Below are positions 13,107 through 29,327 of a DNA stretch of 64,000 bases, one piece after another. The stretch's first letter is position 1. Every line of letters begins with the position of its first letter. The notes under the pieces are model-generated. The model searched no databases. It saw only the letters and a program-made list of their open reading frames with translations, and was not told the origin of the DNA. The stretch is taken from NCBI RefSeq assembly GCF_009660225.1, contig NZ_CP045920.1:2802079-2866078 (forward strand). The letters are read 5' to 3'. A program made the translations under genes and the position numbers. Source of the stretch: Pseudactinotalea sp. HY158. GTDB lineage: Bacteria; Actinomycetota; Actinomycetes; Actinomycetales; Beutenbergiaceae.

Positions 13107-14459
13107 ATGGCGCACGCATCGACCCCGGGCCCCGGCCTGACCAGCACCGCCCTGTTGACCGACCGCTACGAGCTGACGATGCTGCAGGCCGCGCTCGCCG
13201 ACGGCAGCGCGCACCGCCGGTCGATCTTCGAGGTGTTCACCCGCAGGCTCCCGCCCGGGCGCCGCTACGGCGTCGTGGCCGGCACGGGCCGGCTGCTCGA
13301 GGCCGTACGGGACTTCCGCTTCGACGAGGCCGAGCTGGACTACCTGCGGCGGGAGAGCGTCGTCGATACGCCCACCCTGGACTACCTCGCGGACTACCGC
13401 TTCACGGGCGACATCTACGGCTACGCGGAGGGCGAGGTGTTCTTCCCGGGCTCGCCGCTGCTCGTGGTCGAGTCCGAGTTCGGCGAGGGGGTGCTGCTGG
13501 AGACCGTCGTGCTCTCGATCCTCAACTACGACTCGGCGGTCGCCTCGGCGGCCTCGCGGATGACGTCCGCGGCCGGGAGCCGCCCGTGCCTGGAGATGGG
13601 GTCGCGGCGGGCGCACGAGCAGGCGGCGGTCGCGGCGGCGCGGGCGGCGACCGTGGCGGGCTTCGTGGGCACGTCGAACCTCGAGGCGGGGCGCCGGTAC
13701 GCGATCCCGACGATCGGCACCGCGGCCCACGCCTTCACCCTCCTGTACGACACGGAGGAGGAGGCGTTCGCGGCGCAGGTCGCCGCCTACGGAACCGGCA
13801 CGACCCTGCTCGTGGACACCTACGACATCCCCACCGGCGTGCGCCGCGCGATCGCGGCCGCGGGCACGAGCCTCGACGCGGTGCGGCTCGACTCGGGAGA
13901 TCTGGGCGCCGTGGCCCGGGAGGTGCGCGAGCAGCTCGACGCCCTCGGCGCGGCGGGCACGAAGATCGTCGTCTCCTCCGACCTGGACGAGTACTCGATC
14001 GCGGCGCTCGCGGTGGCCCCGGTCGACTCCTACGGCGTGGGCACCTCCGTGGTGACCGGCTCCGGCGCCCCGACCTGCTCGATGGTGTACAAGCTCGTGC
14101 TGCGGGAGAACTCCGCGGGCGAGATGGAGCCGGTGCAGAAGGTGTCGAGTTCGAAGGCGAGCGTCGGCGGCCGCAAGAACGCCGCCCGCCGGATCGACCC
14201 CGCCGGCCGCGCGAGCGAGGAGGTCATCGTCTCGGGCGCCGAGGGCGACTGGTCACCGGCGGGCGAGGACCTGCGGGCGCTGCACGTGCCGCTCGCCCGG
14301 GCCGGGGTCGTCGACGAGGACCACATCGGCGCGGCGGGACTGCTGCGGGCGGGGCGTCGTCATCAGGCCTCGCGGGCGGAGCTGCGCCCCGCGGCCCGGC
14401 GGCTCTCCGCGGGCGACCCGGCGCTCGCGACCGTGCACGTCGACGTGGCCGAGGTCTAG
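13107..14459 (+). CDS. pncB: Nicotinate phosphoribosyltransferase
   Basis: The 450-residue enzyme joins nicotinate to PRPP, giving nicotinate mononucleotide in the NAD salvage (Preiss-Handler) route. Diagnostic segments are [15 protein letters not shown] near the N-terminus, [32 protein letters not shown] and [14 protein letters not shown]. The phosphate-binding GVGTSVVTG comes later. The ATG at 13107 follows a -10-like TAGGTT. Its end overlaps the photolyase gene by 4 nt, tail to tail. It is divergent from clpS, as in many actinobacteria. Confidence 0.94.
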
Positions 14460-15847
14460 CCGGCCGGGTCGGGGAACGATCGGCCCCGTGCGTGCCCGTA
14501 GCGGGCGAGCGCCTCCGCCCGGGCGGCGCGATGCTCGACGATCGGTTCCGGATACCCGCCCGCGAGGCCGGCCGGAGCGGCCCACGGCTCGTGGATCGCC
14601 GCGCCCTCGAGGTGGCCGAGCTCGGGCACGTAGCGGCGGATGTAGCGGCCGTCGGGGTCGAACTTCCGCCCCTGGGTGATCGGGTTGAAGATCCGGAAGT
14701 AGGGGGCGGCATCGGTGCCCGTGCCCGCGACCCACTGCCAGCCGTGATTATTCGAGGCGAGGTCGCCGTCGATCAGGTGGGCCAGGAAGTGTCGGGCGCC
14801 GTGTGGCCACCAGATGTGCAGGTGCTTGACCAGAAAGCTCGCGGTGACCATGCGCAGCCGATTGTGCATCCACCCCTCGGCGAGCAGCTGCCGCATCCCG
14901 GCGTCCACGAACGGGTAGCCGGTGCGGCCGGCGCGCCAGGCGTCGAGGGCCGCCGCGGCGTCGCCGTCGGAATCCGGGTCGTCGTAGCCCATGCCGGCGA
15001 GTTGCCGGCGTAGGTCGTTCCAGGCGGAGTCGGGATGATGCCAGAGCACGTCCGCGTAGAACTCCCGCCAGGCGAGCTCGTCGACGAACGTGTGCGCGCC
15101 CGCGCCCCGTCGGCGGCCCAGCGCGGCGAGCAGGGTGCGCGGATGGATCGTTCCGTATTTCAGGTGCGCGGACAACCGGCTCGTGCCATCCAGGTCCGGG
15201 CGGTCTCGCCGGTCGGCGTAGTCGGTGACGTCCTCCTCGAGGAACGCGTGCCAGCGTTCAAGCGCTGCGGCCGGACCGAGCGCGGGCGCTGCCACAGCGG
15301 ACTCCGGGAGTGCCGGCAGGTCCTCGGACTCGATGGTGCGCGCGAGCCGCAGGCCCGCCGGCACGATCGCCGGACGCGGCCAGCCGTGGTCGCGCCAGGC
15401 GCGCGAGTACGGCGTGAACACCTTGTAGGGATCACCCGAGCCGTTCCGGATCCGCCCGGGGGTGACGGCATACGGGCTCCCCGTGGCCACGAGCGGTATG
15501 TCGCCGAGCGCGTCCCGCACGCGCTCGTCCCGGCGGCGCCCGTACGGGGTCGTCTCCGCCGAGACGTGGACCCCGGCCGCGTCCGCCTCGGCGGCGACCT
15601 GTGGAACCACCGTCTCGGGGCGCCCGGTGCGCACGACGAGCGCGCCGTCGTAGGCCTCCTGGGCGGCTGTCACCGCGGCCAGGTAGGCCCGGGTCCGCAC
15701 CGGTGAGCCGGCCAGCAGGCCGGGATCGAGGACGACGAGCGGCACGATCGCGTTTCCGCCGGCCTGGTCATGGGCGCGGCCGAGCGCGGGCAGGTCCTCG
15801 ATCCGCAGGTCCCGTCGGAGCCAGAGGAGTGTGCGCACGAGGCTCAC
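14456..15847 (-). CDS. phr: Deoxyribodipyrimidine photolyase (cryptochrome/photolyase family)
   Basis: The 463-residue flavoprotein repairs UV-induced pyrimidine dimers with light. The N-terminal antenna domain begins VRTLLWLRRDLR. The FAD-binding C-terminal half has WREFYADVLW, GYPFVDAGMRQLLAEGWMHNR, WWPHGARHF and NNHGWQWVAGTG. The GTG at 15847 is chosen because it has GAGG six bases upstream and overlaps the crtU stop as GTGA; a second GTG at 15838 is possible. It is therefore the last gene of the crtYc-crtYd-crtT-crtU operon and would be made together with photoprotective pigment. Confidence 0.93.
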   Translation of the reverse strand: MSLVRTLLWLRRDLRIEDLPALGRAHDQAGGNAIVPLVVLDPGLLAGSPVRTRAYLAAVTAAQEAYDGALVVRTGRPETVVPQVAAEADAAGVHVSAETTPYGRRRDERVRDALGDIPLVATGSPYAVTPGRIRNGSGDPYKVFTPYSRAWRDHGWPRPAIVPAGLRLARTIESEDLPALPESAVAAPALGPAAALERWHAFLEEDVTDYADRRDRPDLDGTSRLSAHLKYGTIHPRTLLAALGRRRGAGAHTFVDELAWREFYADVLWHHPDSAWNDLRRQLAGMGYDDPDSDGDAAAALDAWRAGRTGYPFVDAGMRQLLAEGWMHNRLRMVTASFLVKHLHIWWPHGARHFLAHLIDGDLASNNHGWQWVAGTGTDAAPYFRIFNPITQGRKFDPDGRYIRRYVPELGHLEGAAIHEPWAAPAGLAGGYPEPIVEHRAARAEALARYGHARGRSFPDPAG

Positions 15848-17409: not shown

Positions 17410-18158
17410 CGGTTCACCGGCTTCCGGGCGACGAAGGTGTGCAGGATGCCGCGCTGCCAGCCCGAGCCGGAGCGCGAGTCCACGTGCGTGAAGCCCGCCC
17501 GCCGGAGCCGGGCGGCGAACCGGGCCCGGGAGTCGAAGGCACGCACGCTGCGCCACAGGTACCGATACAGCCCGGGATTGCGGTCGAGGATGATCCCGAG
17601 TGGGATGATCACGAGCCAGGAGACGGCGTCCCACACCGCGGTGGCGAGTCGGTCACCGGCGATCGAGTACTCCTGCACGACGAGCCGGCCGCCCGGGCGC
17701 AGCAGCTCGAACGCCTCCCGGATCGCCCGGTCGCGGCGGCGCTCGTCGACGTTGCGAAAGAGGTAGGCCGCCAACACGCCGTCCCACTCTCCCGGCCCGT
17801 GGCGCTGAACGTCCAGTCGGCCGCACTCGGCCTGCTCGAAGCTCACACCCGCGGGCCAGACCTTGCGTTCGGCCTCGGCGAGCATCCCGGCCGAGGCGTC
17901 CAGCCCCAGCACGCGGGCCCCGGCGGGCAGTGCGTCGACGAGCGCGCGCGTGGATGCTCCGGACCCGCAGGCGAGGTCGAGTATCCGCATCGGCGCGTCC
18001 GATCGGCACCGCCTCCCGAGCGTCCGCGCCGCGAACGCGAGGTGCCTGTGGTAGCCGGGGTTGAGCGCGACCATCCGGTCGTACCGGGCGGCTCCGCGGT
18101 CGAAGGCCCGCGTGACGGGCACCTGCTCGTCGGCGCCCGGGGTGACGGCGTGTCTCAT
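17406..18158 (-). CDS. crtT: SAM-dependent methyltransferase of the carotenoid cluster, CrtT-like
   Basis: The 250-residue class I methyltransferase has SAM motif I ILDLACGSGASTRAL at about residues 59-73. LGLDASAGML and the UbiE-like LRPGGRLVVQEYS follow. The ATG has AAGGAG upstream and overlaps the crtYd stop by 4 nt. Methyltransferases of this type sit beside crtU in Streptomyces and Brevibacterium isorenieratene clusters and are named crtT, with no firmly known reaction. An alternative is a menaquinone/ubiquinone-type methyltransferase recruited to the cluster. Confidence 0.75.
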   Translation of the reverse strand: MRHAVTPGADEQVPVTRAFDRGAARYDRMVALNPGYHRHLAFAARTLGRRCRSDAPMRILDLACGSGASTRALVDALPAGARVLGLDASAGMLAEAERKVWPAGVSFEQAECGRLDVQRHGPGEWDGVLAAYLFRNVDERRRDRAIREAFELLRPGGRLVVQEYSIAGDRLATAVWDAVSWLVIIPLGIILDRNPGLYRYLWRSVRAFDSRARFAARLRRAGFTHVDSRSGSGWQRGILHTFVARKPVNR

Positions 18159-18469
18159 TCCTGCTCCTTGCTTTGACCGGACCGGATCCACAGGATGAGT
18201 GTCAACGTCAGCATCGCGAACCCGAAACCGAAGTCCTCGATCGGGATGTCCCAGGGAAGGCGAATGCCGAGGAACTCGTCCGGGTTGTACAGCACGATCG
18301 GGTTCGAGAGCTTCGTCAGCCACCCGTCCACGGCGACCTGGAAACCGAAGACGATCGCCATCGCCAGCCAATAGGCCCCGCGCCGGAAGATGCCCGTGCG
18401 CGCCCACACCAGCTCGAATCCGAGCACGAGCACGATGCCGATCGCCGTGAAGACCGTGTACTCAGGCAT
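18155..18469 (-). CDS. crtYd: Lycopene cyclase subunit CrtYd
   Basis: The 104-residue membrane protein has three hydrophobic segments (about 5-22, 30-50 and 80-97) and the heterodimeric lycopene cyclase motif IPIEDFGFGFAML. Together with CrtYc it cyclises the ends of lycopene in the membrane. Neighbouring crtU favours beta-ring over epsilon-ring formation, and no crtEb elongase is present. It overlaps crtYc by 8 nt and crtT by 4 nt. Confidence 0.87.
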   Translation of the reverse strand: MPEYTVFTAIGIVLVLGFELVWARTGIFRRGAYWLAMAIVFGFQVAVDGWLTKLSNPIVLYNPDEFLGIRLPWDIPIEDFGFGFAMLTLTLILWIRSGQSKEQE

Positions 18470-18845
18470 CCGGCCCGCCCTCCCCGACCCGCACGAGGCC
18501 GTCCGGCCAGCGGAACGAGAGCCGCCCGGGCGCGCGGGCCAGCGCCAGGAGGCGTCGGACCGCCTCGTACGTGAGCAACGCGCAGATCGGGATGACCACG
18601 AAGAACACGATCTCCTCCAGCGGCAGCGTTCCCACCTCGACACCGGTCACGAAGCGGGAGCTGTAGGTCCAGTGGCCCCGGGAGATCGCGAACACGTCCC
18701 ACGCCCCGAAGAGCACGAGCACCGGCACGACCGCCGTCGCCAGCCGGCGCGGGGAGCGATACACCCGCGCTCCGACCAGGAATTCCAAGGGCAGCGTGAC
18801 GGCTACGCACAGGCCCATGACGATCAGGTACTGCAGTTGACTCAC
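18462..18845 (-). CDS. crtYc: Lycopene cyclase subunit CrtYc
   Basis: The 127-residue membrane protein contains LPLEEIVFFVVIPICALLTYEA, read here as two joined blocks, which is the lycopene cyclase domain signature. It has three predicted helices at about 4-24, 36-53 and 78-95. A GTG start at 18845 has AAGGGA about ten bases upstream. It opens the crtYc-crtYd-crtT-crtU-phr operon and is divergent from the P450 gene across 74 bp. Both half-subunits are needed for cyclisation in the related two-gene systems. Confidence 0.87.
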   Translation of the reverse strand: MSQLQYLIVMGLCVAVTLPLEFLVGARVYRSPRRLATAVVPVLVLFGAWDVFAISRGHWTYSSRFVTGVEVGTLPLEEIVFFVVIPICALLTYEAVRRLLALARAPGRLSFRWPDGLVRVGEGGPDA

Positions 18846-18865
18846 TGACGGTGTTCCCTTCTGCG

Positions 18866-18891
18866 GTCGATGATCGACGGCTGCGTATGAT
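18866..18891. promoter_or_regulatory. Palindrome and -10 between crtYc and P450
   Basis: A 13-bp palindrome GTCGATGATCGAC (18866-18878) is centred in the divergent spacer. A near-consensus -10, TATGAT (18886-18891), lies on the plus strand 28 bp before the P450 start. The palindrome is well placed to control both directions. Confidence 0.45.
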
Positions 18892-18919
18892 CTGGCGAAG
18901 GACGGAAGGAGCCCCGGCT

Positions 18920-20110
18920 GTGGACGACGACGTGCGACTCTCCCGCAAGCGCGACGAACCGGACGAGCCCCGCGTCGACGGCGACCGATCCGTGTGGCGG
19001 ATCCGCTCCCTCGCCGCGGCCCGACAGGTGCTGCGAGCACGATCGGTGACGACGCAGGCCGGTTTCACGGCGGAGGCGATTCCGAAGGGCTACTTCCGGC
19101 ACCACCCGATCCTGGTCTCCGACGGCCCGCAGCACGACGAGCAGCGGCGCAAGGTCGCCCGGTTCTTCGCCCCGGCGGTCGTGCACGAGCGGTACGGGGC
19201 GGATATCCGAACCACGGCGGAGGACCTGATCGACGCGGCCGTGGCGGCGGGCACCTGCACGCTCGACGAGATCGCGCTGCGGTTCACGGTCGACGTCACC
19301 CGCCGGATCGTCGGAATCGACCACTCCTCGCTCCGGGGCCTGTGCCGGCGACTCGACTCGTTCTTCAACCAGCCTCCGCTCGACGTCACCCGGGCGGACT
19401 TCGGGCGGAGCCGGGCCCAATGGGCCCGCGCCGGGATCAATGCGCTCGTGCCGTTGCTGCGCTTCTACCTCGCCGACGTGCGCCCGGCCGTCCGCCGTCG
19501 ACGCCGCCACCCGGGCGCCACCGTCGTCGACCATCTCATCGCGGAGGGCTACCGCACCCCCGACATCCTGGTCGAGTGCCTGACGTACGGAACGGCGGGA
19601 ATGGTCACCACGCGTGAATTCATCACGATGGCGTGCTGGCACCTGCTTCGTGACGACGCGCTCCGGGAGCGCTACCTGGTCGCCGGCGAGGCCGAGCGCA
19701 CGGCGATCCTGGAGGAGATCCTGCGCCTCGAGCCGGTGGTGGGCCACCTCTATCGCCGGATGCAGCAGGACTTCGAGCTCACCCACGGCGAGTCGACGTT
19801 CACGTTGCGGGCCGGCGACCTCGTGGACGTCTGCGTGCGGCAAACGAATACGGACGCCGAGGCGGTCGGCGCGCACCCCCGGTGCCTGCGCCCGGGCCGC
19901 GAGCTTCCCCGCGGCGTCGCCGCCGCGGGGCTGAGCTTCAGCGACGGCGCCCACAAGTGCCCGGGCCAGACGCTGGCGATGGCCGAGACGGACATCTTCC
20001 TCACCCGCCTGCTCAGGGCGAACCCGCGGCCGGCGGCGGAGCCGACGCTCACCCGCGACCAGTTGATCGAGGGCTACGCCCTGCGCGGGATGGTGCTCTC
20101 GTTCGGCTGA
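18920..20110 (+). CDS. Cytochrome P450
   Basis: The 396-residue cytoplasmic P450 has the ExxR motif in EEILRLEP and the haem-ligand loop FSDGAHKCPGQT, with Cys at about residue 347. The acid-alcohol pair of the I helix is unusual: GTAGMVTTREF. The GTG at 18920 is chosen for the AAGGAG 8 nt upstream; in-frame starts at 18851 and 18887 exist. It lies between the two carotenoid operons, divergent from crtYc and convergent with crtI. A P450 in the B. linens cluster is linked to 3,3'-dihydroxyisorenieratene, so ring hydroxylation is the likely role; this rests on context. Confidence 0.85.
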   Translation: MDDDVRLSRKRDEPDEPRVDGDRSVWRIRSLAAARQVLRARSVTTQAGFTAEAIPKGYFRHHPILVSDGPQHDEQRRKVARFFAPAVVHERYGADIRTTAEDLIDAAVAAGTCTLDEIALRFTVDVTRRIVGIDHSSLRGLCRRLDSFFNQPPLDVTRADFGRSRAQWARAGINALVPLLRFYLADVRPAVRRRRRHPGATVVDHLIAEGYRTPDILVECLTYGTAGMVTTREFITMACWHLLRDDALRERYLVAGEAERTAILEEILRLEPVVGHLYRRMQQDFELTHGESTFTLRAGDLVDVCVRQTNTDAEAVGAHPRCLRPGRELPRGVAAAGLSFSDGAHKCPGQTLAMAETDIFLTRLLRANPRPAAEPTLTRDQLIEGYALRGMVLSFG

Positions 20111-20133: not shown

Positions 20134-21696
20134 TCACGATCGACTCCGTCGTCCGGGGGCCGCCGCCCGGCTTCGGTCCGATCGGATCCGGTCCCGCACG
20201 TTCTCGGCGCTGATGAGACACATCGGCAGACCGACCCCGGGAATGGTGCTCGCGCCCGCGAAGTAGAGCCCCTCGACCCGGCGCGACCGGTTCGAGGTGC
20301 GGAAGAAGGCGCTCTGACGCAGCGTGTGCGCGGGGCCGAGCAGTCCCCCGCGCCAGGAGTTGAACCGGTCGGCGAAGTCCCCGGGCCCGGAGGTCCGGCG
20401 CAGGAGGATCCGCTCGCGCAGGTCGGGAATGTCGGCGTAGTCGGCCACCAGGTCGATCGCCGCGTCTGCGATCCGCTCCACCGCGGGATCTCCGCCACCG
20501 TCGCGCCCGCCCCGGCCGATGCCCGGATCGGCCGGCACCGGCACGAGGATGAAGAGGTTCTCGTCGCCCGCCGGTGCCACGCTCGCATCGGTCTTCGACG
20601 GCGCACAGACGTAGACGGAGGCCGGATCGGGCACCCGTCCCATGCGGATATCGGCGAAGTTTCGCTGCCAGTCCCGCGTGAAGAAGAGGGAGTGGTGGGC
20701 GAGCTGCGGCACGGTTCCCCTCACGCCGAGGTAGACGAGCACCCCGCCCGGTCCCGGATCGTGCCGGCTCCACCAGCGCCGGCTCCGCTCCCGCAGCCGC
20801 GGGTCGAGCAGGTCGTGTTCGACGTGATGGAGGTCGGCCGCCGCGACCACCCACCGCGCCGCCCGCTCCAGCAGTTGCTCGCCCTGCCGGAACCGCACGC
20901 CGCGCACGCGCCCGCCGCCCTCGTCGTCCGTGAGAATGGCCTCGACACGCGCGCCGGTGTGGATGCGCACGCCGGCCCGCCGGGCGGTCGCGGCGATCAC
21001 ATCGATGAGCCGGGCGAAACCGCCGTCCGGATAGAGCACGCCCCCGTTCAGGTCGAGCGCGCTCATGAGGTGGTACAGGCTCGGCGCCCGGTCCGGGGAG
21101 GTGCCGAGGAAGACGGCCGGATAGCCGAGGATCTGCTGGAGACGCCGGTCGGCGAAGTCCCGTTCGATCCGGCTCTGCAGGGATCGCAGGAGCAGCGGGA
21201 CGAGCCGGTGCACCCGGGTGAGCACGTCGGGTCGGGCGAGGTCCCACGGCGAGGTGAAGCTGGTGTAGAGGAACCGGCGCTTCGCGATGTCATAGGTGTC
21301 GGCCGCCGAGGCCAGGTAGCGGCCGAGCCGGGCGCCGGCGCCCGGCTCGATGGCCTCGAACGTGGCAAGGTTATCCGCCGTGCGGGCGCTGATATCGACC
21401 GGCTCCGGATGGTCCTCGTAGTAGACCCGGTACGCCGGGTCGAGGCCGATCAGGTCGAGCTCGGCCTCCACGCTCGTTCCCATGAGCTCGAAGAAGCGGG
21501 AGAACACCTCGGGCATGAGATACCAGGACGGCCCCGTGTCGAAGCGAAAGCCGTCCGCGGCCCAGCGGCCCGCGCGCCCGCCGAGTTCGCCCTGTTCGAA
21601 CAGCTCGACGTCCATCCCGTCGCGGGCGAGCAGGGCCGCGGCCGCGAGCCCGGAGATACCGCCGCCGACGACGGCGACCTGCGGTGGCGCGTTCAT
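20134..21696 (-). CDS. crtI: Phytoene desaturase
   Basis: The 520-residue FAD enzyme converts phytoene to lycopene by four desaturations. The FAD-binding motif VAVVGGGISGLAAAALLA is at residues 8-25, with ELGGRAGRW and FDTGPSWYLMPEVF following. The C-terminal GLYFAGASTIPGVGLPMCLISAENV is the CrtI-type signature. It overlaps crtB by 4 nt and is the third gene of the crtE-crtB-crtI operon. It ends 23 bp from the convergent P450 gene. Confidence 0.93.
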   Translation of the reverse strand: MNAPPQVAVVGGGISGLAAAALLARDGMDVELFEQGELGGRAGRWAADGFRFDTGPSWYLMPEVFSRFFELMGTSVEAELDLIGLDPAYRVYYEDHPEPVDISARTADNLATFEAIEPGAGARLGRYLASAADTYDIAKRRFLYTSFTSPWDLARPDVLTRVHRLVPLLLRSLQSRIERDFADRRLQQILGYPAVFLGTSPDRAPSLYHLMSALDLNGGVLYPDGGFARLIDVIAATARRAGVRIHTGARVEAILTDDEGGGRVRGVRFRQGEQLLERAARWVVAAADLHHVEHDLLDPRLRERSRRWWSRHDPGPGGVLVYLGVRGTVPQLAHHSLFFTRDWQRNFADIRMGRVPDPASVYVCAPSKTDASVAPAGDENLFILVPVPADPGIGRGGRDGGGDPAVERIADAAIDLVADYADIPDLRERILLRRTSGPGDFADRFNSWRGGLLGPAHTLRQSAFFRTSNRSRRVEGLYFAGASTIPGVGLPMCLISAENVRDRIRSDRSRAAAPGRRSRS

Positions 21697-22553
21697 CGGC
21701 GGCCCCGGCTCACGAGCGCGCGGCCCACCAGCCAGGCCTTGCGGGGACCGGGCACCCGAACCCGGGTGCGGCGGATGTCCGTGGCCGGGGTCGCTCGCAG
21801 CCGCCTCGACAGCTCTGCGAAGAGCGAGTGGGCCGCCCGGACGGCCACGCGCGCGCCGACCGGCAGGGCGAGGAGCGCGGCCTGGGCGGCCGCCAGGTCG
21901 TCGTCGATGTCGTCGAGCAGGCGGTCCCGGTCGGTGTCGTGAAAGCTGTCCGGGTCGACCTGGACGTAGCTACGGCCCAGCTCGTCGAGATCGGCGCCCA
22001 GGTCGCGCAGGAAGTTGACCTTCTGGAACGCGGCGCCGAGTCGGCGAGCCCCGCCGGAGAGCCCGTCGTACGCCGCGGCGTCGCCGTCGACGAAGACCCG
22101 CAGGCACATGAGGCCGACGACCTCGGCCGATCCGTAGACGTACTCCGTCAGGCTCGCCGCATCGTGCCCGCTCCGGGTGAGGTCCGTGCGCATGGAGGCG
22201 AAGAAGGGATCGATGAGGTCGGCGTCGATGCCGTAGCTGCGAGCCGTCAAAGCGAAGGCGTGCACCACCAGGTTCGGGCTGCGTCGCTCCTGCACGGCGC
22301 GCCGCGTCTCGGCCTCGAGGTCGTCGAGGAGTCGCGCCCGGTCGGCCGCGGGCCAGCCCGCATCCGGCTCGTCGACGATCTCGTCGGCGACTCGGACGAG
22401 CGCGTAGATATTGCGGATGTGGCCGCGCATGTCCGCGGGCAGGAGGCGGGTGGCCCATCCGAAGGACGTGGAATACCCGGCGATCACCACCGCCGCGCTC
22501 CGGCTGGCCACCCGGTCGTACCGCGGCCGGTTCCGCCGGCGGTGCGCGATCAT
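21693..22553 (-). CDS. crtB: Phytoene synthase
   Basis: The 286-residue prenyl transferase joins two geranylgeranyl diphosphates head to head, giving phytoene. The two Asp-rich magnesium-binding motifs are DEIVDE (residues 57-62) and NFLRDLGADLDE (about 167-178). YVYGSAEVVGLMCLRVF is also conserved. Its ATG overlaps the crtE stop and its stop overlaps the crtI start, each by 4 nt. Confidence 0.94.
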   Translation of the reverse strand: MIAHRRRNRPRYDRVASRSAAVVIAGYSTSFGWATRLLPADMRGHIRNIYALVRVADEIVDEPDAGWPAADRARLLDDLEAETRRAVQERRSPNLVVHAFALTARSYGIDADLIDPFFASMRTDLTRSGHDAASLTEYVYGSAEVVGLMCLRVFVDGDAAAYDGLSGGARRLGAAFQKVNFLRDLGADLDELGRSYVQVDPDSFHDTDRDRLLDDIDDDLAAAQAALLALPVGARVAVRAAHSLFAELSRRLRATPATDIRRTRVRVPGPRKAWLVGRALVSRGRR

Positions 22554-23587
22554 GCGTCTACCCCGGCGGCCCGGATCCAGTCCTCCAACAGCGGCGCGAT
22601 GCTCAGGTCGCGGGCGCTGCGCCGAGCCCGGCTCGCGAAGTCACGCGCGAGCTCCTCCACGAAGGCGCGGGCGCCGCAGAGCTCGAGCAGCTCACGCACG
22701 TGTCCCGCCTCATGCGCCGTCAGCCCCTCGACCCCCAGGTAGGGGGCGATGAGCGGCCATTGCGAGGTCGTGCGTGCGAACGCGATGAGCGGAGTGAACT
22801 TCCCCTCCCGCAGGTCCGACAGCACGCTCTTCCCGGTCTCCTGCTCGAGGCCGAAGACCCCGCTCACGTCGTCCCGGAGCTGGTAGGCGATTCCCACGTA
22901 CCGGGCATAGTCCTCGAGCGCGGTGCGCACCTGTGCAGCGGCGCCCGCGAGCACGGCGGCGGACCGCAGCGGCAGCTCGAAGGAGTAGGCGGCGGTCTTG
23001 TGCCGCTCCATCGTGAGGGTCCCCTCGACGTCGCCGTCGGCGACCAGGCTGAGGAACACGTCCGCCAGCTCCCCCGCCGCGCTCTGGTGGAGCGCCTCGT
23101 CCAGCGCGTCGAGCAGTTCCGCGGTGGTCGCGCCGTCCGCGCCGCAGCGGGCGATGAGCCGCACCGCACCGGCGAGCGCGAGGTCGCCGGCGAGGATCGC
23201 GGCGGCGTCACCGTAGGCGCCGGCACGACCGGCCGGCCGACCGAGATCCGTCGCCTCCGCCGCGAACGTGCCGGAGACGTTCGGCTTGCCGCGCCGCATC
23301 CCGTCCCCGTCGATGACGTCGTCATGGATCACCAGGGCCGTGTGCAGCAGCTCGAGGGCGGCCCCCACGTGCCCCGCGGCCCGGCCGTCCACGCCTCCGA
23401 GCGCCCGGTAGACGCTGTGGAAGAGCCGCGGCCGCAACCGTTTGCCGCCCTCGGTCGCGTCCCGCAACGCGGACCAGAGACGCCGATGGCCGTCGGTGAG
23501 GATGTGCGCGGTGCCGGAATCGAAGAACTCCTCGAGCGCCCGGTCGGTCCCTCGAAGTCCCTCGTCGGCCTTCGCCAACGCGGTCAT
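22550..23587 (-). CDS. crtE: Geranylgeranyl diphosphate synthase
   Basis: The 345-residue trans-prenyltransferase supplies GGPP for carotenoids. The first Asp-rich motif is HDDVIDGDGMRRGKP (Asp 89-90 and 93). The second is YQLRDDVSGVFG, followed by GKSVLSDLREGKFT. The ATG at 23587 has a strong GGAGGTGG site upstream. It is the first gene of crtE-crtB-crtI and lies about 100 nt from its predicted transcription start, in a region shared with the divergent MarR gene. Confidence 0.92.
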   Translation of the reverse strand: MTALAKADEGLRGTDRALEEFFDSGTAHILTDGHRRLWSALRDATEGGKRLRPRLFHSVYRALGGVDGRAAGHVGAALELLHTALVIHDDVIDGDGMRRGKPNVSGTFAAEATDLGRPAGRAGAYGDAAAILAGDLALAGAVRLIARCGADGATTAELLDALDEALHQSAAGELADVFLSLVADGDVEGTLTMERHKTAAYSFELPLRSAAVLAGAAAQVRTALEDYARYVGIAYQLRDDVSGVFGLEQETGKSVLSDLREGKFTPLIAFARTTSQWPLIAPYLGVEGLTAHEAGHVRELLELCGARAFVEELARDFASRARRSARDLSIAPLLEDWIRAAGVDA

Positions 23588-23670: not shown

Positions 23671-23727
23671 TTGACCACCGGATGCGGCTGTTCGACAATA
23701 CTAAGCATGGTGAGCAAGTGAGTGGAA
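23671..23727. promoter_or_regulatory. Overlapping divergent promoters of crtE and the MarR gene
   Basis: For the MarR gene, TTGACC (23671-23676) is 17 nt from GACAAT (23694-23699). For crtE on the minus strand, TTCCAC (23722-23727) is 18 nt from TAGTAT (23698-23703). The two -10 boxes overlap, so one bound regulator could shut both promoters. Corynebacterium glutamicum has the same crtR/crtE layout. Confidence 0.5.
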
Positions 23728-23782: not shown

Positions 23783-24256
23783 ATGAGCGACGGCCCCGCG
23801 GACGCGGGGGCCACCCGGGCGTATCCGCCGCCGGAGACCTGGCCGACCGGACGACTCCTGTCGGCCGCGGCCCGGCGGGTGGAACGCGCGTGGGACGACT
23901 ATCTCGAGCAGTGGTCGCTCACCCATGCCTCCCTGCCCGTGTTGGTCATCCTCACCGGCGGCCCGCTGTCGCAGCGGGAGATCGCCGGGCAGATGCACGT
24001 GAGCGAGCAGTCGGTCGGGCGGGTGCTCGGCGGGCTCGAGCGGGCCGGCCACCTCACCCGGTCGGCGCATCCGGAGGATCGCCGCCGCCGCGTCGTCACC
24101 CTGACCGACTCCGGCCGCACCGCCCTCGAACGGCTCGATCATCTCCGAAACGTCGAGTCGCTGCTCGGGGACAGCCTGAGCGCCGCGGAGGTCGACCAGT
24201 TGCGCCGACTTCTGATCCGGATGGTCGCTCATTTCCCCAAGGAGGAGGACCGGTGA
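23783..24256 (+). CDS. MarR-family regulator, CrtR-like
   Basis: The 157-residue winged-helix regulator has the recognition region LSQREIAGQMHVSEQSVGRVLGGLERAGHLTR when its halves are joined, and the wing HPEDRRRRVVTLT. Its position, divergent from crtE with overlapping promoters, matches CrtR of C. glutamicum, a repressor of carotenoid genes released by isoprenoid diphosphates. Control of the crt genes is therefore inferred. The ATG at 23783 follows GGGAG at 9 nt. Confidence 0.85.
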   Translation: MSDGPADAGATRAYPPPETWPTGRLLSAAARRVERAWDDYLEQWSLTHASLPVLVILTGGPLSQREIAGQMHVSEQSVGRVLGGLERAGHLTRSAHPEDRRRRVVTLTDSGRTALERLDHLRNVESLLGDSLSAAEVDQLRRLLIRMVAHFPKEEDR

Positions 24257-24299: not shown

Positions 24300-25022
24300 A
24301 TGACCGGCCCGGCGCGGGAGCTGCGGGACTTCTTCCGCGCCGCACTCGTGGATCGGGTCGTGCTCCCCGACCGACCGGTCGACCACGAGGCGACGCTGCG
24401 GCGGCGGGTCGTGGTGGGATCGACCATCGTCGCCGGGGCGGTGCTGCTCGGCCGCCTGCCGGCCGTGCCCGCCGGCGATCCGGCCTTCTACGCCCTGCTC
24501 GTGGCCACGGCCGCGATCTGGGTGCTCGGCGCATTCGGCTCCGGTCCGATCCGCCTCGGTCACGCCCGCACGCGCGACGGGCGCACGAGCCGGGCGATGC
24601 TGCAGGGGCTCATTCTCGGGGGGATGCTGCTCGGGGTCTTCCTGCTCGGGGCGCTCGCCGTGGCCGAGGTTCCGGCGCTGCGCACCCCCGTGGACGATCT
24701 GCTCCGGCACGCCCGTTACGCCTCGCTGCCGGTCGTGCTCGCGCTCACGGCGATCAACGGCGCCGCCGAAGAACTCTTCTTTCGGGGCGCCCTGTTCTCG
24801 GCGCTCCCGCCCCGGTGGCGGGTGGCCGGGTCCACGCTCGGCTACGCACTGTCGACCGTGCTGTCGGGGGTCCCGCTGCTGACGTTCGCGGCGCTCTGCC
24901 TGGGAGCCCTCACCGGGTTGCAACGCCGCGTCACGGGCGGGGTGCTCGGTCCGATCGTCAGCCACCTCGTGTGGTCCATCGGAATGCTGCTATTCCTGCC
25001 GAGCGTGCTCGGCAGGATCTGA
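24300..25022 (+). CDS. CPBP-family intramembrane protease
   Basis: The 240-residue protein has about six membrane segments and the CPBP (Rce1-like) motif EELFFRG at about residues 159-165. A second motif region ends in SHLVWS, where His is an expected catalytic ligand. Members are intramembrane endopeptidases, in bacteria often linked to self-protection or to unknown processing. It lies 43 bp after the MarR gene and 22 bp before the TspO fusion on the same strand, so it may belong to one transcript. Confidence 0.8.
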   Translation: MTGPARELRDFFRAALVDRVVLPDRPVDHEATLRRRVVVGSTIVAGAVLLGRLPAVPAGDPAFYALLVATAAIWVLGAFGSGPIRLGHARTRDGRTSRAMLQGLILGGMLLGVFLLGALAVAEVPALRTPVDDLLRHARYASLPVVLALTAINGAAEELFFRGALFSALPPRWRVAGSTLGYALSTVLSGVPLLTFAALCLGALTGLQRRVTGGVLGPIVSHLVWSIGMLLFLPSVLGRI

Positions 25023-25044: not shown

Positions 25045-26487
25045 ATGTCCACCGATCTCGCACTCGTCACGGGAGCATCCGGCTTCATCGGCGGCCACCT
25101 CGTACCGGCCCTCCTCGACCGAGGCTGGCGGGTCCGCGTGCTGGCCCGCAACCCCGCCAAGCTCCATCCCGACTGGCGCGATCGGGTCGACGTCGTGCAC
25201 GGCGACGCCACCGACAACGAACGCCTGCAGGCGGCACTCGACGGAGTCACGTGCGCCTACTACCTGCTGCACTCGATGGACGACCGGGGCGACTTCCTGC
25301 GCCGCGACCTGGAGCTCGCGCGCGGCTTCGCACGCGCCGCCGAGGAGGCCCAAGTCTCGCGGGTCGTGTACCTGAGCGGCCTCCACCCGACGGACCGACC
25401 GTTGTCGGACCACATGCGCTCGCGGGCCGAGGTCGGCAAGGTCTTCCTCGACTCGGGGGTGCCGGCCGCGGTGCTGCAAGCCGGCATCGTCCTCGGCCCG
25501 CAGTCGATCTCCTTCAGGATGCTCCGCCACCTGACCGAACGCCTGCCCGTGGCGGTCGCGCCCCGCTGGCTCGACAACCGGGTGCAGCCGATCGCCACCG
25601 CCGATGTCATCCACTATCTCGTGGCCGCCGCCTCCCTTCCGGACGAGGTGAACCGCTCCATCGACCTCGGAATGGACGAGGTGCTCACCTACCGGGAGAT
25701 GATGAAGCGCTATGCCCAGGTGACCGGATTGCTGCCGCGCCGGATCCTCGTGGTACCGGTGCTCACCCCTGCGCTGGCGAGCCACTGGGTCGGCCTGGTC
25801 ACGCCCGTGGCCGCCTGCATCGCCAAGCCGCTCGTCGGCAGCATCATCCACGATGCAGTCAAGAACGACGAGGACGCCGACGAGTTGCTCGGCGCGCCAC
25901 CGGGCGGGCCGACCGGCTTCGATGACGCCATCCGGATCGCCGCCGAGGGGGTCGATCCGAAGCGGTGGGGCCGCACGGCCGCGGCGGTGGGAGCCGGGGT
26001 CGCGGCCGCCGCGGTAGTCGGGTCGTGGGCGACCGAGCCGGACGGGCGGTGGTATCGCACGCTTCGCAAGCCTGCCCTCCAGCCGCCGGCGGCGGTCTTC
26101 CCGCTCGCGTGGACGACGCTGTACGGAGCGATCTGGGCCTCCTCCACCGCGACGATCAGGGAACTGGCAGAAGCCGGCGACGCCCGTGCGAGCCGCGCGT
26201 TCGCCCGCGCACTCCGAATCAACCTGGCGCTCAACGCCGGCTGGTCGGCCGTGTTCTTCCGATTCCACCGGCTCCGTGCCGCGACCATCGTGGCAGGTGC
26301 CCTCGCGGCCAGCTCCGCCGACATCGCCCGGCGCGCCGCACCGACCGGTCGGGGGAAGGTGATCGCGCTGGGCGCCTACGCGGGCTGGTGCACGTTCGCC
26401 ACGGTGTTGTCCGGGCGGCTCGCACGCCTCAACCCTCGCCCCACTCGTCCTCGGCCGTCCGACTCAAGGAGTCGAGGAAGCCGATGA
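25045..26487 (+). CDS. NAD(P)-binding epimerase-like domain fused to TspO/MBR
   Basis: The 480-residue protein has two domains. Residues 1-305 form an atypical SDR/NmrA-type Rossmann domain, with TGASGFIGGHL at 9-19 and a YLLHSMD...YLSG core. Residues about 310-465 are a five-helix TspO/MBR domain: WYRTLRKPALQPPAAVFPLAWTTLYGAIW in pieces, then LNAGWSAVFF. TspO proteins bind porphyrins and, in Rhodobacter, tune pigment genes. Here the domain sits beside carotenoid genes, so a redox- or light-stress sensor or a membrane-bound reductase is possible. The frame is continuous. Its end overlaps the convergent MarR gene by 59 nt. Confidence 0.85.
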   Translation: MSTDLALVTGASGFIGGHLVPALLDRGWRVRVLARNPAKLHPDWRDRVDVVHGDATDNERLQAALDGVTCAYYLLHSMDDRGDFLRRDLELARGFARAAEEAQVSRVVYLSGLHPTDRPLSDHMRSRAEVGKVFLDSGVPAAVLQAGIVLGPQSISFRMLRHLTERLPVAVAPRWLDNRVQPIATADVIHYLVAAASLPDEVNRSIDLGMDEVLTYREMMKRYAQVTGLLPRRILVVPVLTPALASHWVGLVTPVAACIAKPLVGSIIHDAVKNDEDADELLGAPPGGPTGFDDAIRIAAEGVDPKRWGRTAAAVGAGVAAAAVVGSWATEPDGRWYRTLRKPALQPPAAVFPLAWTTLYGAIWASSTATIRELAEAGDARASRAFARALRINLALNAGWSAVFFRFHRLRAATIVAGALAASSADIARRAAPTGRGKVIALGAYAGWCTFATVLSGRLARLNPRPTRPRPSDSRSRGSR

Positions 26488-26998
26488 CCGCCGCGCGCTC
26501 GTCCGGGCCGAGGTCGGCGGCGAGCCGGAATCTGCGAGCATGCTCGCGCCCGATCGTCCGCTCGGCGGCCACCCGGGTGGCGTCCGTCACGACGATGGCG
26601 AGCGCGCGCCGGTCACTCGGGTGCGGCTGCCGCCGGATATGCCCGCCGGCCTCCATCCGGTCGAGCAGCTTCGTGGTCGACGCGCTCGAGATGCCGAGGT
26701 GCTCGGCGATGTCTCGGGCCGTCACCGTCGTCCCGGCATCGGCGGCGACGATGAGATACCGCACGGCTCGCATGTCCGTGGCCGACAACCGCATGTAGCG
26801 CGCAGAGGCCTCGCTCACCCGCTGCTCGGCCCTGCGCCAGCGGAAGAGGGCGTTGAGTACCTCGACCGCTCCCGCCACCTGCTCCTCGTCGGTGCCGTCG
26901 ACGTCGATGAGCCGGCCGCGAGAGTCGATGACCCGGGGGTCGTGCATTCGCAGCTCGCCAGCATCCGACGCCGGCTCGCCGGGTTCGGCGGCATCCAT
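26429..26998 (-). CDS. MarR-family transcriptional regulator
   Basis: The 189-residue protein has a winged helix-turn-helix, TVTARDIAEHLGISSASTTKLLDRM when joined, followed by the wing HPSDRRALAIVVT. A 45-residue N-terminal extension is unusual. The ATG at 26998 is preferred: TAGTAT on the minus strand (27005-27010) places the transcript start on it. It is divergent from the MMPL exporter and probably controls that gene and itself through the palindrome between them. Confidence 0.88.
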   Translation of the reverse strand: MDAAEPGEPASDAGELRMHDPRVIDSRGRLIDVDGTDEEQVAGAVEVLNALFRWRRAEQRVSEASARYMRLSATDMRAVRYLIVAADAGTTVTARDIAEHLGISSASTTKLLDRMEAGGHIRRQPHPSDRRALAIVVTDATRVAAERTIGREHARRFRLAADLGPDERAAVIGFLDSLSRTAEDEWGEG

Positions 26999-27004
26999 CA
27001 CACG

Positions 27005-27066
27005 ATACTAGCCGCGTCACATTACTAACCGGGGAGATTGCTAGCCAAGCTAGTAATCTATAGTGT
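27005..27066. promoter_or_regulatory. MarR operator palindrome and divergent promoters
   Basis: AGATTGCTAGC (27035-27045), a CAA spacer, and GCTAGTAATCT (27049-27059) form a 25-bp palindrome with one mismatch. It overlaps the exporter's promoter: -35 TTGCTA (27038-27043) and -10 TAGTGT (27061-27066, 17-nt spacer) or TATAGT (27059-27064). The leftward MarR promoter -10 is TAGTAT at 27005-27010. Confidence 0.6.
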
Positions 27067-27098: not shown

Positions 27099-29327
27099 AT
27101 GCCCACCTCCTCCTCGAGCCCCCCGACGGATTCCCCCACGACCGGGGGCCACCGCTTCCACGCCCTCCGGGTCGTGATCCCGGCGCTCATCATCCTCGTC
27201 TGGCTCGCCGGTGCGGGCATCGGCGGCCCGTATTTCGGCAAGGTGAGCGAGGTCTCCTCGAACGACTCCACCGCCTTCCTGCCCACGAGTGCCGAGGCGA
27301 CGACGGTCCAGAACCGGCTCCCCGACTTCCTCGGTGAGGACGCCATCCCCGCGATCGTCCTCATCACCAGCCAACAGAAGCTGGACTCCGCCGACCTGGC
27401 CGACATTCGGACCCTCGCCCAGGACCTCGCCGGCCTCCCGGAGGTGGCCGGCGCCGTCAGCCCGCCGATCCCCTCCGAGGACGGGCTGGCCGTGCAGATC
27501 TTCGTCCCCCTCGACGCCGACTCCGAGGTGGACGCCGCCGTGGAGGCCCTGCGCGCCGAGCTCGCCGCCACGCTGCCCGGCGGGCTCACGAGCTACGTCA
27601 CCGGCCCGGCCGGCTTCGCCGGCGACCTCGTCGAGGCGTTCGGCGGAATCGACGGGTTGCTGCTGCTCGTCGCGGTCATCGCCGTCTTCCTCATCCTCGT
27701 CGTCGTCTACCGGTCGCCGCTGCTGCCGATCATCGTGCTCGTCACGAGCACCTTCGCGCTGTGCGTCGCGCTGCTGACCGTCTGGTGGCTCGCCAAGGCC
27801 GGCATCGTCCTGCTCAGCGGTCAGACCCAAGGGATCCTGTTCATCCTCGTCATCGGCGCAGCCACCGACTATGCCCTGCTCTACGTCTCCCGGTACCGCG
27901 AGACGTTGCGTGATCACGACACGCGCTGGGCCGCGACCAAGGCGGCGTGGCGCGGCTCGATCGCCGCCATCACGGCCTCCGGAGGAACGGTCATCGCCGG
28001 TCTCCTGTGCCTGCTGCTGAGCGACCTGCAGTCGAACCGGTCGCTCGGCCCGATCGCCTCGATCGGCATCGTCTTCGCCATGGCCTCCGCGCTCACGCTC
28101 CTCCCCTCGCTCCTCATGGCCTTCGGCAGGTCCGCCTTCTGGCCCCGGCGCCCGCAGCCGATCGGCGACGACGTCGATCCTCAGGTCGCGCACCTGCCCG
28201 CACGTGGCGTGTGGGCCCGGCTGCCCCGCTACGTCGCCCGCCACGCCCGGCCGATCTGGATCGTGGTCACGCTCGCGCTCCTCGCCGGCACCCTCGGGCT
28301 CACGCAGCTCGAGGCGAAGGGCGTGCCGCAGTCGGACCTCGTGCTCGGCTCCTCCGAGGCCCGGGACGGCCAGGCGGCACTCGGACAGCACTTCCCGGGC
28401 GGATCGGGAAGCCCCGCCTATGTCATCGCCGACGAGGGTGAGCTGCAAGACGTCACCGATGCGCTCCTCGGGACGGAGGGCGTGGCCTCGGTCGCGGTCA
28501 CCGCCGCCGACTCCCCCAGCGGCACCGCACCGGTCACGGCCGACGGCGTCCAGCCGATCGGCCCGCCCGGGACTCCTGCACCGGACCCGACAGTCGATGA
28601 CGGCGACGTGCTCCTGCAGGCGACCCTCGCCTATCCGGCCGACTCGGCCGCCGCCGAGGACGTGATCCGGCAGTTGCGCTCCGACCTCGGCGATCGCGCG
28701 GCCATCGGCGGGCCCACCGCGACCGATCTCGACTCCAACAACGCGTCGATCCGCGATCGCACCCTCATCATCCCGATCGTGTTGCTCGTGATCCTGGTCA
28801 TTCTCATGCTGCTGTTGCGTGCGGTCGTGGCGCCCGTCCTCCTCATCGGAACCGTGGTGCTCTCCTTCGCCGCCACGCTGGGGATCTCGGCGCTGGTCTT
28901 CGACCACGTGTTCGACCTGCCCGGAGCCGATCCGGCCGTCCCCCTCTTCGGCTTCGTGTTCCTGGTCGCGCTCGGCATCGACTACAACATCTTCCTCATG
29001 ACCCGGGTCCGGGAGGAGGCGTTGCACCATGGCGCGCGGGAGGGGATGAACCGGGGCCTGGCCATCACCGGCGGGGTGATCACCTCGGCGGGCCTCGTGC
29101 TCGCGGCGACGTTCGCCGCGCTCGCCGTCATACCGATCATGTTCCTGCTGCAGTTGGCCTTCATCGTGGCCTTCGGCGTGCTCATCGACACGCTGCTGGT
29201 GCGCAGCGTGCTCGTGCCGGCGCTCGGCCATGAGCTCGGCCGGCACCTGTGGTGGCCCTCCCGGCGGATCGCCGCCGCGAGCGATCCCGCGCCGGCGGCC
29301 GTGCGCGCCGACACGGCCGACCGTTAG
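27099..29327 (+). CDS. MMPL-family RND transporter
   Basis: The 742-residue membrane protein shows the RND layout: helix 1 at 25-45, a periplasmic loop to about 185, helices 2-6 at about 187-345, helix 7 at about 385, a second loop, then helices 8-12 at 555-715. MMPL signatures are GAATDYALLYVSRYRE and VALGIDYNIFLMTRVREE, whose Asp-Tyr pairs serve proton coupling. It likely exports a hydrophobic compound or drug across the membrane. The MarR regulator upstream suggests induction by that compound. It ends 2 bp from the convergent helicase gene. Confidence 0.9.
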   Translation: MPTSSSSPPTDSPTTGGHRFHALRVVIPALIILVWLAGAGIGGPYFGKVSEVSSNDSTAFLPTSAEATTVQNRLPDFLGEDAIPAIVLITSQQKLDSADLADIRTLAQDLAGLPEVAGAVSPPIPSEDGLAVQIFVPLDADSEVDAAVEALRAELAATLPGGLTSYVTGPAGFAGDLVEAFGGIDGLLLLVAVIAVFLILVVVYRSPLLPIIVLVTSTFALCVALLTVWWLAKAGIVLLSGQTQGILFILVIGAATDYALLYVSRYRETLRDHDTRWAATKAAWRGSIAAITASGGTVIAGLLCLLLSDLQSNRSLGPIASIGIVFAMASALTLLPSLLMAFGRSAFWPRRPQPIGDDVDPQVAHLPARGVWARLPRYVARHARPIWIVVTLALLAGTLGLTQLEAKGVPQSDLVLGSSEARDGQAALGQHFPGGSGSPAYVIADEGELQDVTDALLGTEGVASVAVTAADSPSGTAPVTADGVQPIGPPGTPAPDPTVDDGDVLLQATLAYPADSAAAEDVIRQLRSDLGDRAAIGGPTATDLDSNNASIRDRTLIIPIVLLVILVILMLLLRAVVAPVLLIGTVVLSFAATLGISALVFDHVFDLPGADPAVPLFGFVFLVALGIDYNIFLMTRVREEALHHGAREGMNRGLAITGGVITSAGLVLAATFAALAVIPIMFLLQLAFIVAFGVLIDTLLVRSVLVPALGHELGRHLWWPSRRIAAASDPAPAAVRADTADR

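Follow-up and report, generated by a model that had tools for sequence, protein, structure and literature searches.

In a 2021 review, TSPO is described as acting mostly through protein partners and small ligands (PMC8243069), and STRING links the TspO of Pseudomonas, among other partners, to PhrB and to an NAD-dependent epimerase (PMC4237140; also PMC8243069). According to the published account of M. kansasii, light induces a phrB-tspO-mmpL2 locus along with the crt genes and crtR, with tspO listed at 29-fold induction (PMC9861118). Descriptions of CrtR-linked actinobacterial clusters draw crtE/B/I/Y, mmpL, phr, P450, ubiE, and 'epi', a putative NDP sugar epimerase, together (PMC5401885). In other actinobacteria, crt and mmpL genes are reported to be under the control of CrtR-type MarR proteins; one group saw CrtR respond to GGPP, an effect that a second group, who linked CrtR to light, did not reproduce (PMC5401885, PMC7432914, PMC6739363). 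In C. glutamicum, light was found to induce the crt genes via CrtR but to have little effect on phrB, and carotenoids did not require the crt operon's RND gene (PMC6739363). Among short-chain dehydrogenase/reductase (SDR) proteins, NDUFA9, the 39-kDa subunit of complex I, is described as binding NADPH adjoining the membrane; no catalytic activity has been demonstrated for it, and its NADPH is probably structural (PMC8762328). A search of the open-licence literature (titles and starts of abstracts, few subscription journals) returned no description of an SDR-TspO fusion.

Such a fusion is found in the window analyzed here, a stretch of 64,000 nucleotides of Pseudactinotalea sp. HY158 (G000:C1:2802079-2866078 of a one-contig genome of 3.65 Mb; Table 1). 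Like the light-induced locus of M. kansasii, the window brings TspO together with photolyase and MmpL; an SDR fusion is not mentioned in the published description of that locus (PMC9861118). Like the CrtR (MarR)-linked clusters, it joins crt, mmpL, phr, P450, and ubiE genes, and it differs from them in its TspO, which is not named in their description (PMC5401885).

Table 1. Features of the SDR-TspO locus in the window (positions are those of the window).
Feature	Position	Strand	Basis or remark
DNA photolyase, start approximate	14456..15844	-	PF03441, 271 bits
Two lycopene cyclase-domain genes (CrtYc/CrtYd type)	18155..19040	-	PF18916
CrtI-family phytoene desaturase	20134..21696	-	TIGR02734, above cut-off (521 bits)
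CrtB-like squalene/phytoene synthase family gene	21693..22553	-	HpnD/HpnC/CrtB families, below equivalog cut-offs
CrtE-like prenyl diphosphate synthase	22550..23587	-	Prenyl synthase families, below equivalog cut-offs; start from sequence
Candidate half-site ATACTAAGC, weak, matching the palindrome	23698..23706	+	In crtE/MarR1 gap
MarR regulator 1	23783..24256	+	First gene of apparent MarR1-CPBP-SDR/TspO run, divergent from crtE
CPBP/Rce1-like membrane protease gene	24300..25022	+	PF02517, 39.9 bits
SDR-TspO fusion gene, 480 aa	25045..26487	+	Frame read, Pfam, alignment, AF2 model
Atypical SDR domain, residues 1-305	25045..25959	+	Pfam, alignment, column counts, structure matches
TspO_MBR domain, residues 319-458	25999..26418	+	Pfam PF03073, solved TspO chains
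MarR regulator 2	26429..27001	-	Pfam
Near-perfect palindrome TTGCTAGCCAAGCTAGTAA, candidate MarR operator	27038..27056	.	Between MarR2 and MmpL
MmpL/RND transporter	27099..29327	+	PF03176, 364 bits

The fusion gene reads from ATG to stop with zero internal stops, and the earlier note was right to see in it one protein with a continuous frame, the Rossmann/SDR and TspO parts sharing a single chain. The Pfam scan places NAD_binding_10 at residues 10-118 (65.6 bits) and NmrA at residues 4-228 (56.3 bits), as expected from the NmrA/SDR-like character that had been ascribed to residues 1-305. TspO_MBR scores 94.3 bits against a curated cut-off of 24, so that the TspO pattern proposed for residues 310-465 is canonical, in a range slightly wider than the Pfam match. 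The AF2 model (mean pLDDT 89.4, pTM 0.83) predicts an alpha/beta domain over about residues 1-300, followed by helices at 307-329, 351-376, 380-406, 410-430, and 436-462 and a short extra one at 335-338; the five long predicted helices within 307-462 are the number expected of TspO. A chance or broken frame, or another artefact, is ruled out by the intact reading frame and because 20 other genomes of the order match over both halves. The fusion is the sole TspO match in its host genome at E <= 0.001.

In its family score and its five predicted helices, the C-terminal half resembles stand-alone bacterial TspO/MBR proteins, from which the window protein differs by carrying a 305-aa SDR at its N-terminus. 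By sequence it matches chains of solved TspO structures, 8e7x at E 1.2e-9 and 4ryi at E 7.6e-4; we take 8e7x and 4uc1 to be the R. sphaeroides protein and 4ryi that of B. cereus. W356 and W448 of the fusion align with tryptophans of the 8e7x/4uc1 chains and belong, together with Y337, P347, P348, Y360, N393, N397, W400, Y445, and N463, to the TspO positions that are invariant in 21 fusions. At position 345, within KPALQPP, the window protein has Leu, whereas Trp is found there in 15 of the 21 aligned fusions. In the structure searches run with the whole protein (Foldseek, VIA), the lists were filled by the SDR half, and VIA returned no TspO row.

The SDR half was compared across 136 SDR domains, namely that of the window, 35 loci of the order chosen as fusions or close relatives (L032-L066), 19 further loci of the order (L072-L090), eight of them picked for a nearby TspO-like gene, and 80 named loci, the best 80 of 589 relatives; one locus (L127) gave two rows, and the comparison did not include L091 (no hit) or the weaker SDR copies of L034 and L151, which score below 390 bits. 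Column counts show that the glycines of TGxxGxxG at residues 9-16 (G10, G13, G16) and R35 are kept in 136/136 domains and T9 in 124/136, which supports, at the level of the motif, the nucleotide-binding Rossmann domain that had been postulated. The catalytic YxxxK of SDRs, in turn, is found in 0/136 domains, its place being taken in all 136 by HxxxR (H123..R127, judged by eye to be equivalent to the Tyr/Lys sites of classical SDRs). Thus, a classical reductase is unlikely, and the possible reductase of the earlier note is not upheld. Also invariant in the 136 domains are H76, S126, S156, R161, P168, W175, D207, and S266. The fusion shares TGxxGxxG with classical and extended SDR oxidoreductases and differs from them in lacking YxxxK, and its SDR half is best read as an atypical module that probably binds NADP(H). 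The best solved-structure matches to the whole-protein model in VIA are complex I chains, with 7qsm_P in the top row (Z 29.6, 2.7 A, 296 aligned residues, 16% identity); 6g2j_P is NDUFA9 by its record name, and 7qsm_P is taken as NDUFA9 from its chain letter. Foldseek ranks UDP-sugar epimerases first. NDUFA9 thus appears as the closest solved fold to the modeled SDR half, although it lacks TspO and works inside complex I.

The fusion is real and conserved. In the order survey, 198 of 297 genomes match the fusion protein and 21, the window's included, match over both halves (counted from the query spans of the listed rows); these 21 fusions align to the window protein over its full length at 48-62% identity. 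A phylum-wide search with a profile of the 21 fusions gave matches in 122 of 396 genomes and, among the matches listed, full-length rows only in G000, G017, G034, and G050, all of the same order, to which only about 11 of the genomes shown from that sample belong. Both halves also occur in 13 named loci, two of which (L095 and L099) are contigs of order genomes already counted. The named carriers include Austwickia, Phycicoccus, Knoellia, Terrabacter, Arsenicicoccus, Humibacillus, Intrasporangium, Enemella, Kocuria, and Rothia, together with MAGs labelled Propioniciclava, Micropruina, and Actinomycetales. One genome, G050, carries two SDR-TspO fusions (L223 on G050:C4 and L041 on G050:C3), each with a CPBP gene close by, and in L034 (G017) the fusion is closely followed, at 11.1-11.9 kb and in the opposite orientation, by another SDR of the same family that is more divergent.

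In the SDR tree, the domains fall into two clades, each with an SH-aLRT of 99. Clade I has 52 rows, 34 of them TspO fusions (two genomes being counted twice, as L035/L095 and L047/L099) and 18 without a full C-terminal domain; it holds all 34 fusions, and DUF2867 occurs in none of its rows. Clade II has 84 rows, 74 with DUF2867 and 10 without. The TspO label requires six changes on this tree, only two of which are forced by well-supported branches, so a single gain of TspO followed by several losses in clade I is possible. L052, which retains only the start of the TspO part and has TspO-like sequence past its stop, looks like a recent loss. Fused and unfused kinds interleave in the tree of 68 TspO domains (35 fused, 33 unfused); since strong branches force only one of the four changes, the fused domains may still have a single origin. 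An unfused TspO without SDR (L214, G296:C2) is nested among the fusions with weak support (87/71), and the same genome has a clade-I SDR without TspO (L059, G296:C1), a possible case of fission.

DUF2867 (PF11066) was detected by Pfam in L061 and L064 and is absent from the Pfam scan of the window protein. The SDR-DUF2867 proteins (PF13460/PF05368 plus PF11066), which we take to be of the YbjT type, share roughly 45-58% identity with residues 1-305 of the fusion as well as the same invariant residues, but they bear DUF2867 in the place of TspO and form a separate clade. The modeled DUF2867 resembles START/Bet v 1-like domains (Foldseek best E 1.1e-6), the model being only fair (mean pLDDT 73.6) and the TM-scores modest (about 0.4-0.6). 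In some unfused clade-I proteins (L054, L055, L057-L060, L062), the tails, of the type DPDWAG, DPSWAG, or DPAWAG, are similar to the linker preceding DUF2867, a hint that an ancestor may have carried this domain. In five loci named Streptomyces or Nocardiopsis (L115, L119, L122, L129, L130), SDR-DUF2867 genes stand near MmpL-type transporter genes.

SDR and TspO are also encoded as separate genes. The listed rows yielded 76 typed SDR/TspO pairs, of which nine lie within 20 kb; one of the nine is the fusion of G080 and eight are unfused pairs 0.3-2.5 kb apart. The TspO relatives in these eight are divergent (27-42 bits), the three that were read being 270-287 aa long, and the assignment of such long proteins to TspO is distant (38.7 bits in L078; in L072 no Pfam row, yet 32 bits in another TspO search). 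In L072-L075 and L079, the order is MarR, a divider, and then CrtE, SDR/DUF2867, long TspO, CrtB, and CrtI; L076-L078 have related arrangements. L063, L086, and L110 likewise have a long TspO hit close to the SDR, and in L053 and L109 such a hit is close to an unfused clade-I SDR. In L211 and L237, arranged as CrtE...TspO-photolyase-CrtI-CrtB-(SDR-DUF2867), a canonical, unfused TspO is located between carotenoid genes and photolyase. The association with pigment clusters elsewhere is borne out insofar as unfused SDR/TspO relatives share MarR-bearing carotenoid clusters in several genomes. It does not make unfused TspO a general partner of SDR, photolyase, or crt genes: among 33 unfused canonical TspO loci picked from the genome-search listing and viewed over about 8 kb on each side, only three (L211, L237, L212) have an SDR, and none of these genes is near TspO in the other 30. 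Plasmid TspO genes were considered as independent contexts; of five matched records, two were inspected; no SDR or crt gene is annotated in either stretch, and in one of them TspO and a photolyase are about 5.5 kb apart. In L233 (G235:C4), an unfused, low-scoring TspO stands beside MmpL-type and MarR hits, recalling the tspO-mmpL2 pair of M. kansasii.

Within the window, the fusion lies between a carotenoid cluster and MarR genes, which bears out the carotenoid and MarR neighbors first noted. The CPBP gene, whose EExxxR motif reads EELFFR, ends 22 nt upstream of it; the genes of the MarR1-CPBP-fusion run are separated by 43 and 22 nt, and the run points away from crtE-crtB-crtI. Further genes of the carotenoid cluster, between 15844 and 20110, encode a cytochrome P450, a UbiE-like methyltransferase, and an amine-oxidase-type FAD enzyme; L032, L211, and L237 also have P450, cyclase, and FAD genes, which, as we assume, may point to a modified, possibly aromatic, carotenoid.

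CPBP is the most constant neighbor in other genomes. It is found within 4 kb in 32 of the 34 fusion rows (all but L045 and L050, the hits in L049 and L051 being weak) and near 18/18 unfused clade-I rows, and in clade II it appears only near the Mycobacterium rows of L127 and L151. In the order sample, photolyase lies within about 10 kb of 8/21 fusions and crt genes within about 10 kb of 6/21; as the window's own proteins served as queries, divergent neighbor genes may have escaped detection, and in L046 the locus is truncated by the end of its contig. Across whole genomes, CrtI over the cut-off is present in 13/21 fusion genomes versus 5/20 genomes without a protein match (Fisher p 0.028), photolyase in 16/21 versus 8/20 (p 0.028), and photolyase and/or CrtI in 19/21 versus 9/20 (p 0.0025). 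The controls comprise the 20 genomes listed out of 99 without a match; six of these 20 are from the window's family, and the family make-up of the controls differs from that of the fusion set, so kinship confounds the comparison. The CrtI hit is in two pieces in G050 and holds one stop in G072. CrtI over the cut-off is absent from 8/21 fusion genomes, and G247 and G203 have neither CrtI over the cut-off nor a photolyase match. The survey of further fusions and their surroundings thus shows CPBP and photolyase to be steadier neighbors than crt genes; the pigment link is real in part, is not universal, and is looser than first proposed, and the idea of an exclusive pigment device is weakened.

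Regarding regulation, MarR1 or MarR2 might act like CrtR, by analogy with the systems cited above, and relatives of MarR2 adjoin crtE or MmpL genes in some other genomes. The pattern of the candidate operator TTGCTAGCCAAGCTAGTAA has one match in the window and none in 100 shuffles, and that of the weak half-site ATACTAAGC one match versus 0.03 expected; both patterns were written from the same sites they match, so the statistics of the half-site in the window are not independent. A repeat search of the window did not report the palindrome. Five other loci have similar half-sites, which lie between MarR and crtE in L032, L076, and L149, directly upstream of the SDR in L064, and between long TspO and MmpL in L077; 11/22 loci with MarR, MmpL, or CrtE hits have none. 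Half-site hits in L072-L075 were ignored, as they look like what we take to be 16S rRNA; the crt cluster with SDR-DUF2867 and long TspO in these loci apparently lies a few kb from it.

The reading that we favor for the fusion is a membrane-anchored protein in which a putative NADP(H)-binding SDR is joined to TspO, its gene forming a run with those of the CPBP protease and the regulator MarR1. As we infer the ligand, the topology, NADP(H) occupancy, and the coupling of the two halves, the TspO pocket would hold a hydrophobic, light-reactive compound, for which known TspO proteins make a porphyrin the likeliest candidate; the SDR would sit on the cytosolic side with NADP(H) in a non-classical His/Arg pocket, where it would read or use the state of the pyridine nucleotides and thereby set whether the ligand is held, passed on, or altered. 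That the fusion belongs to a gene set for light and photo-oxidative stress (carotenoids, photolyase, MmpL) appears rather probable, and that SDR and TspO act in it as one unit we would put at an even balance. The coupling of ligand and NADP(H) just outlined is tentative and, on balance, doubtful. The light-stress part of the redox-linked device first proposed is supported by the photolyase and carotenoid neighbors and by the unfused SDR/TspO pairs in some carotenoid clusters, and it agrees with the light-induced phrB-tspO-mmpL2 locus of M. kansasii and the STRING partners of Pseudomonas TspO; its reductase is not supported, given the HxxxR substitution. Against a light-stress unit speak the 15/21 order-sample fusions around which no crt gene was detected within about 10 kb, the 8/21 fusion genomes without CrtI over the cut-off, the 30/33 unfused TspO loci with no SDR, photolyase, or crt gene nearby, and the small effect of light on phrB in C. 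glutamicum (PMC6739363). CPBP, the steadiest partner, is not obviously photochemical in its role, and, since 18/52 clade-I SDRs lack a full TspO domain, TspO is not always needed in cis.

Three other explanations, not all mutually exclusive with this reading, draw on the same observations. A serious rival, though one that we rate as somewhat improbable, is a plain scaffold: the SDR half would be a non-catalytic, NADPH-holding domain, like NDUFA9 in complex I, and would stabilize or localize TspO, with no redox chemistry or sensing. NDUFA9-type chains as top structural matches, the lack of demonstrated catalysis and the probably structural NADPH of NDUFA9 in its published description (PMC8762328), and the missing YxxxK all agree with it, but a pure scaffold does not obviously need an invariant substituted pocket (H76, H123, S126, R127, S156, R161), and in clade I the SDR is also kept where TspO is not. 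The missing Tyr/Lys pair weighs, in turn, against an enzyme that would tailor or detoxify an isoprenoid, a carotenoid breakdown product, or a quinone, with DUF2867 or TspO merely presenting the substrate; the fusion genomes without CrtI over the cut-off fit it poorly. The sister-clade SDR with its modeled START/Bet v 1-like domain, located inside crt operons in several genomes, and, if it belongs to this family, the 'epi' gene drawn in the CrtR-linked clusters (PMC5401885), speak in favor of such an enzyme, which we nevertheless consider unlikely. Equally unlikely in our estimation is a general membrane or envelope stress module centered on CPBP, in which light and pigment would be coincidental to some lineages. 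CPBP is indeed far steadier than crt genes around fused and unfused clade-I SDRs, and G247 and G203 do without both markers; yet photolyase accompanies CPBP and the fusion in 8/21 order-sample loci, photolyase and/or CrtI is present in nearly all fusion genomes, and the pairing of SDR with crt genes recurs in the sister clade.

A START/TSPO pairing is known in steroidogenic mitochondria. It is a more remote, speculative idea that TspO and DUF2867, with its START-like model, can replace one another as modules for hydrophobic ligands on a single type of NADP(H)-binding SDR. If so, the fusion would expose a native redox partner of TspO, the state of NADP(H) would directly gate ligand handling by TspO in a bacterial light-stress response, and the fusion would be a one-polypeptide counterpart of the mitochondrial pairing. 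The function of TspO and its partners are a long-standing question. The conserved fusion, together with the same parts as neighbors in some carotenoid clusters, points for TspO to one specific partner in the form of an atypical SDR, and to light and photo-oxidative stress as the physiological setting.
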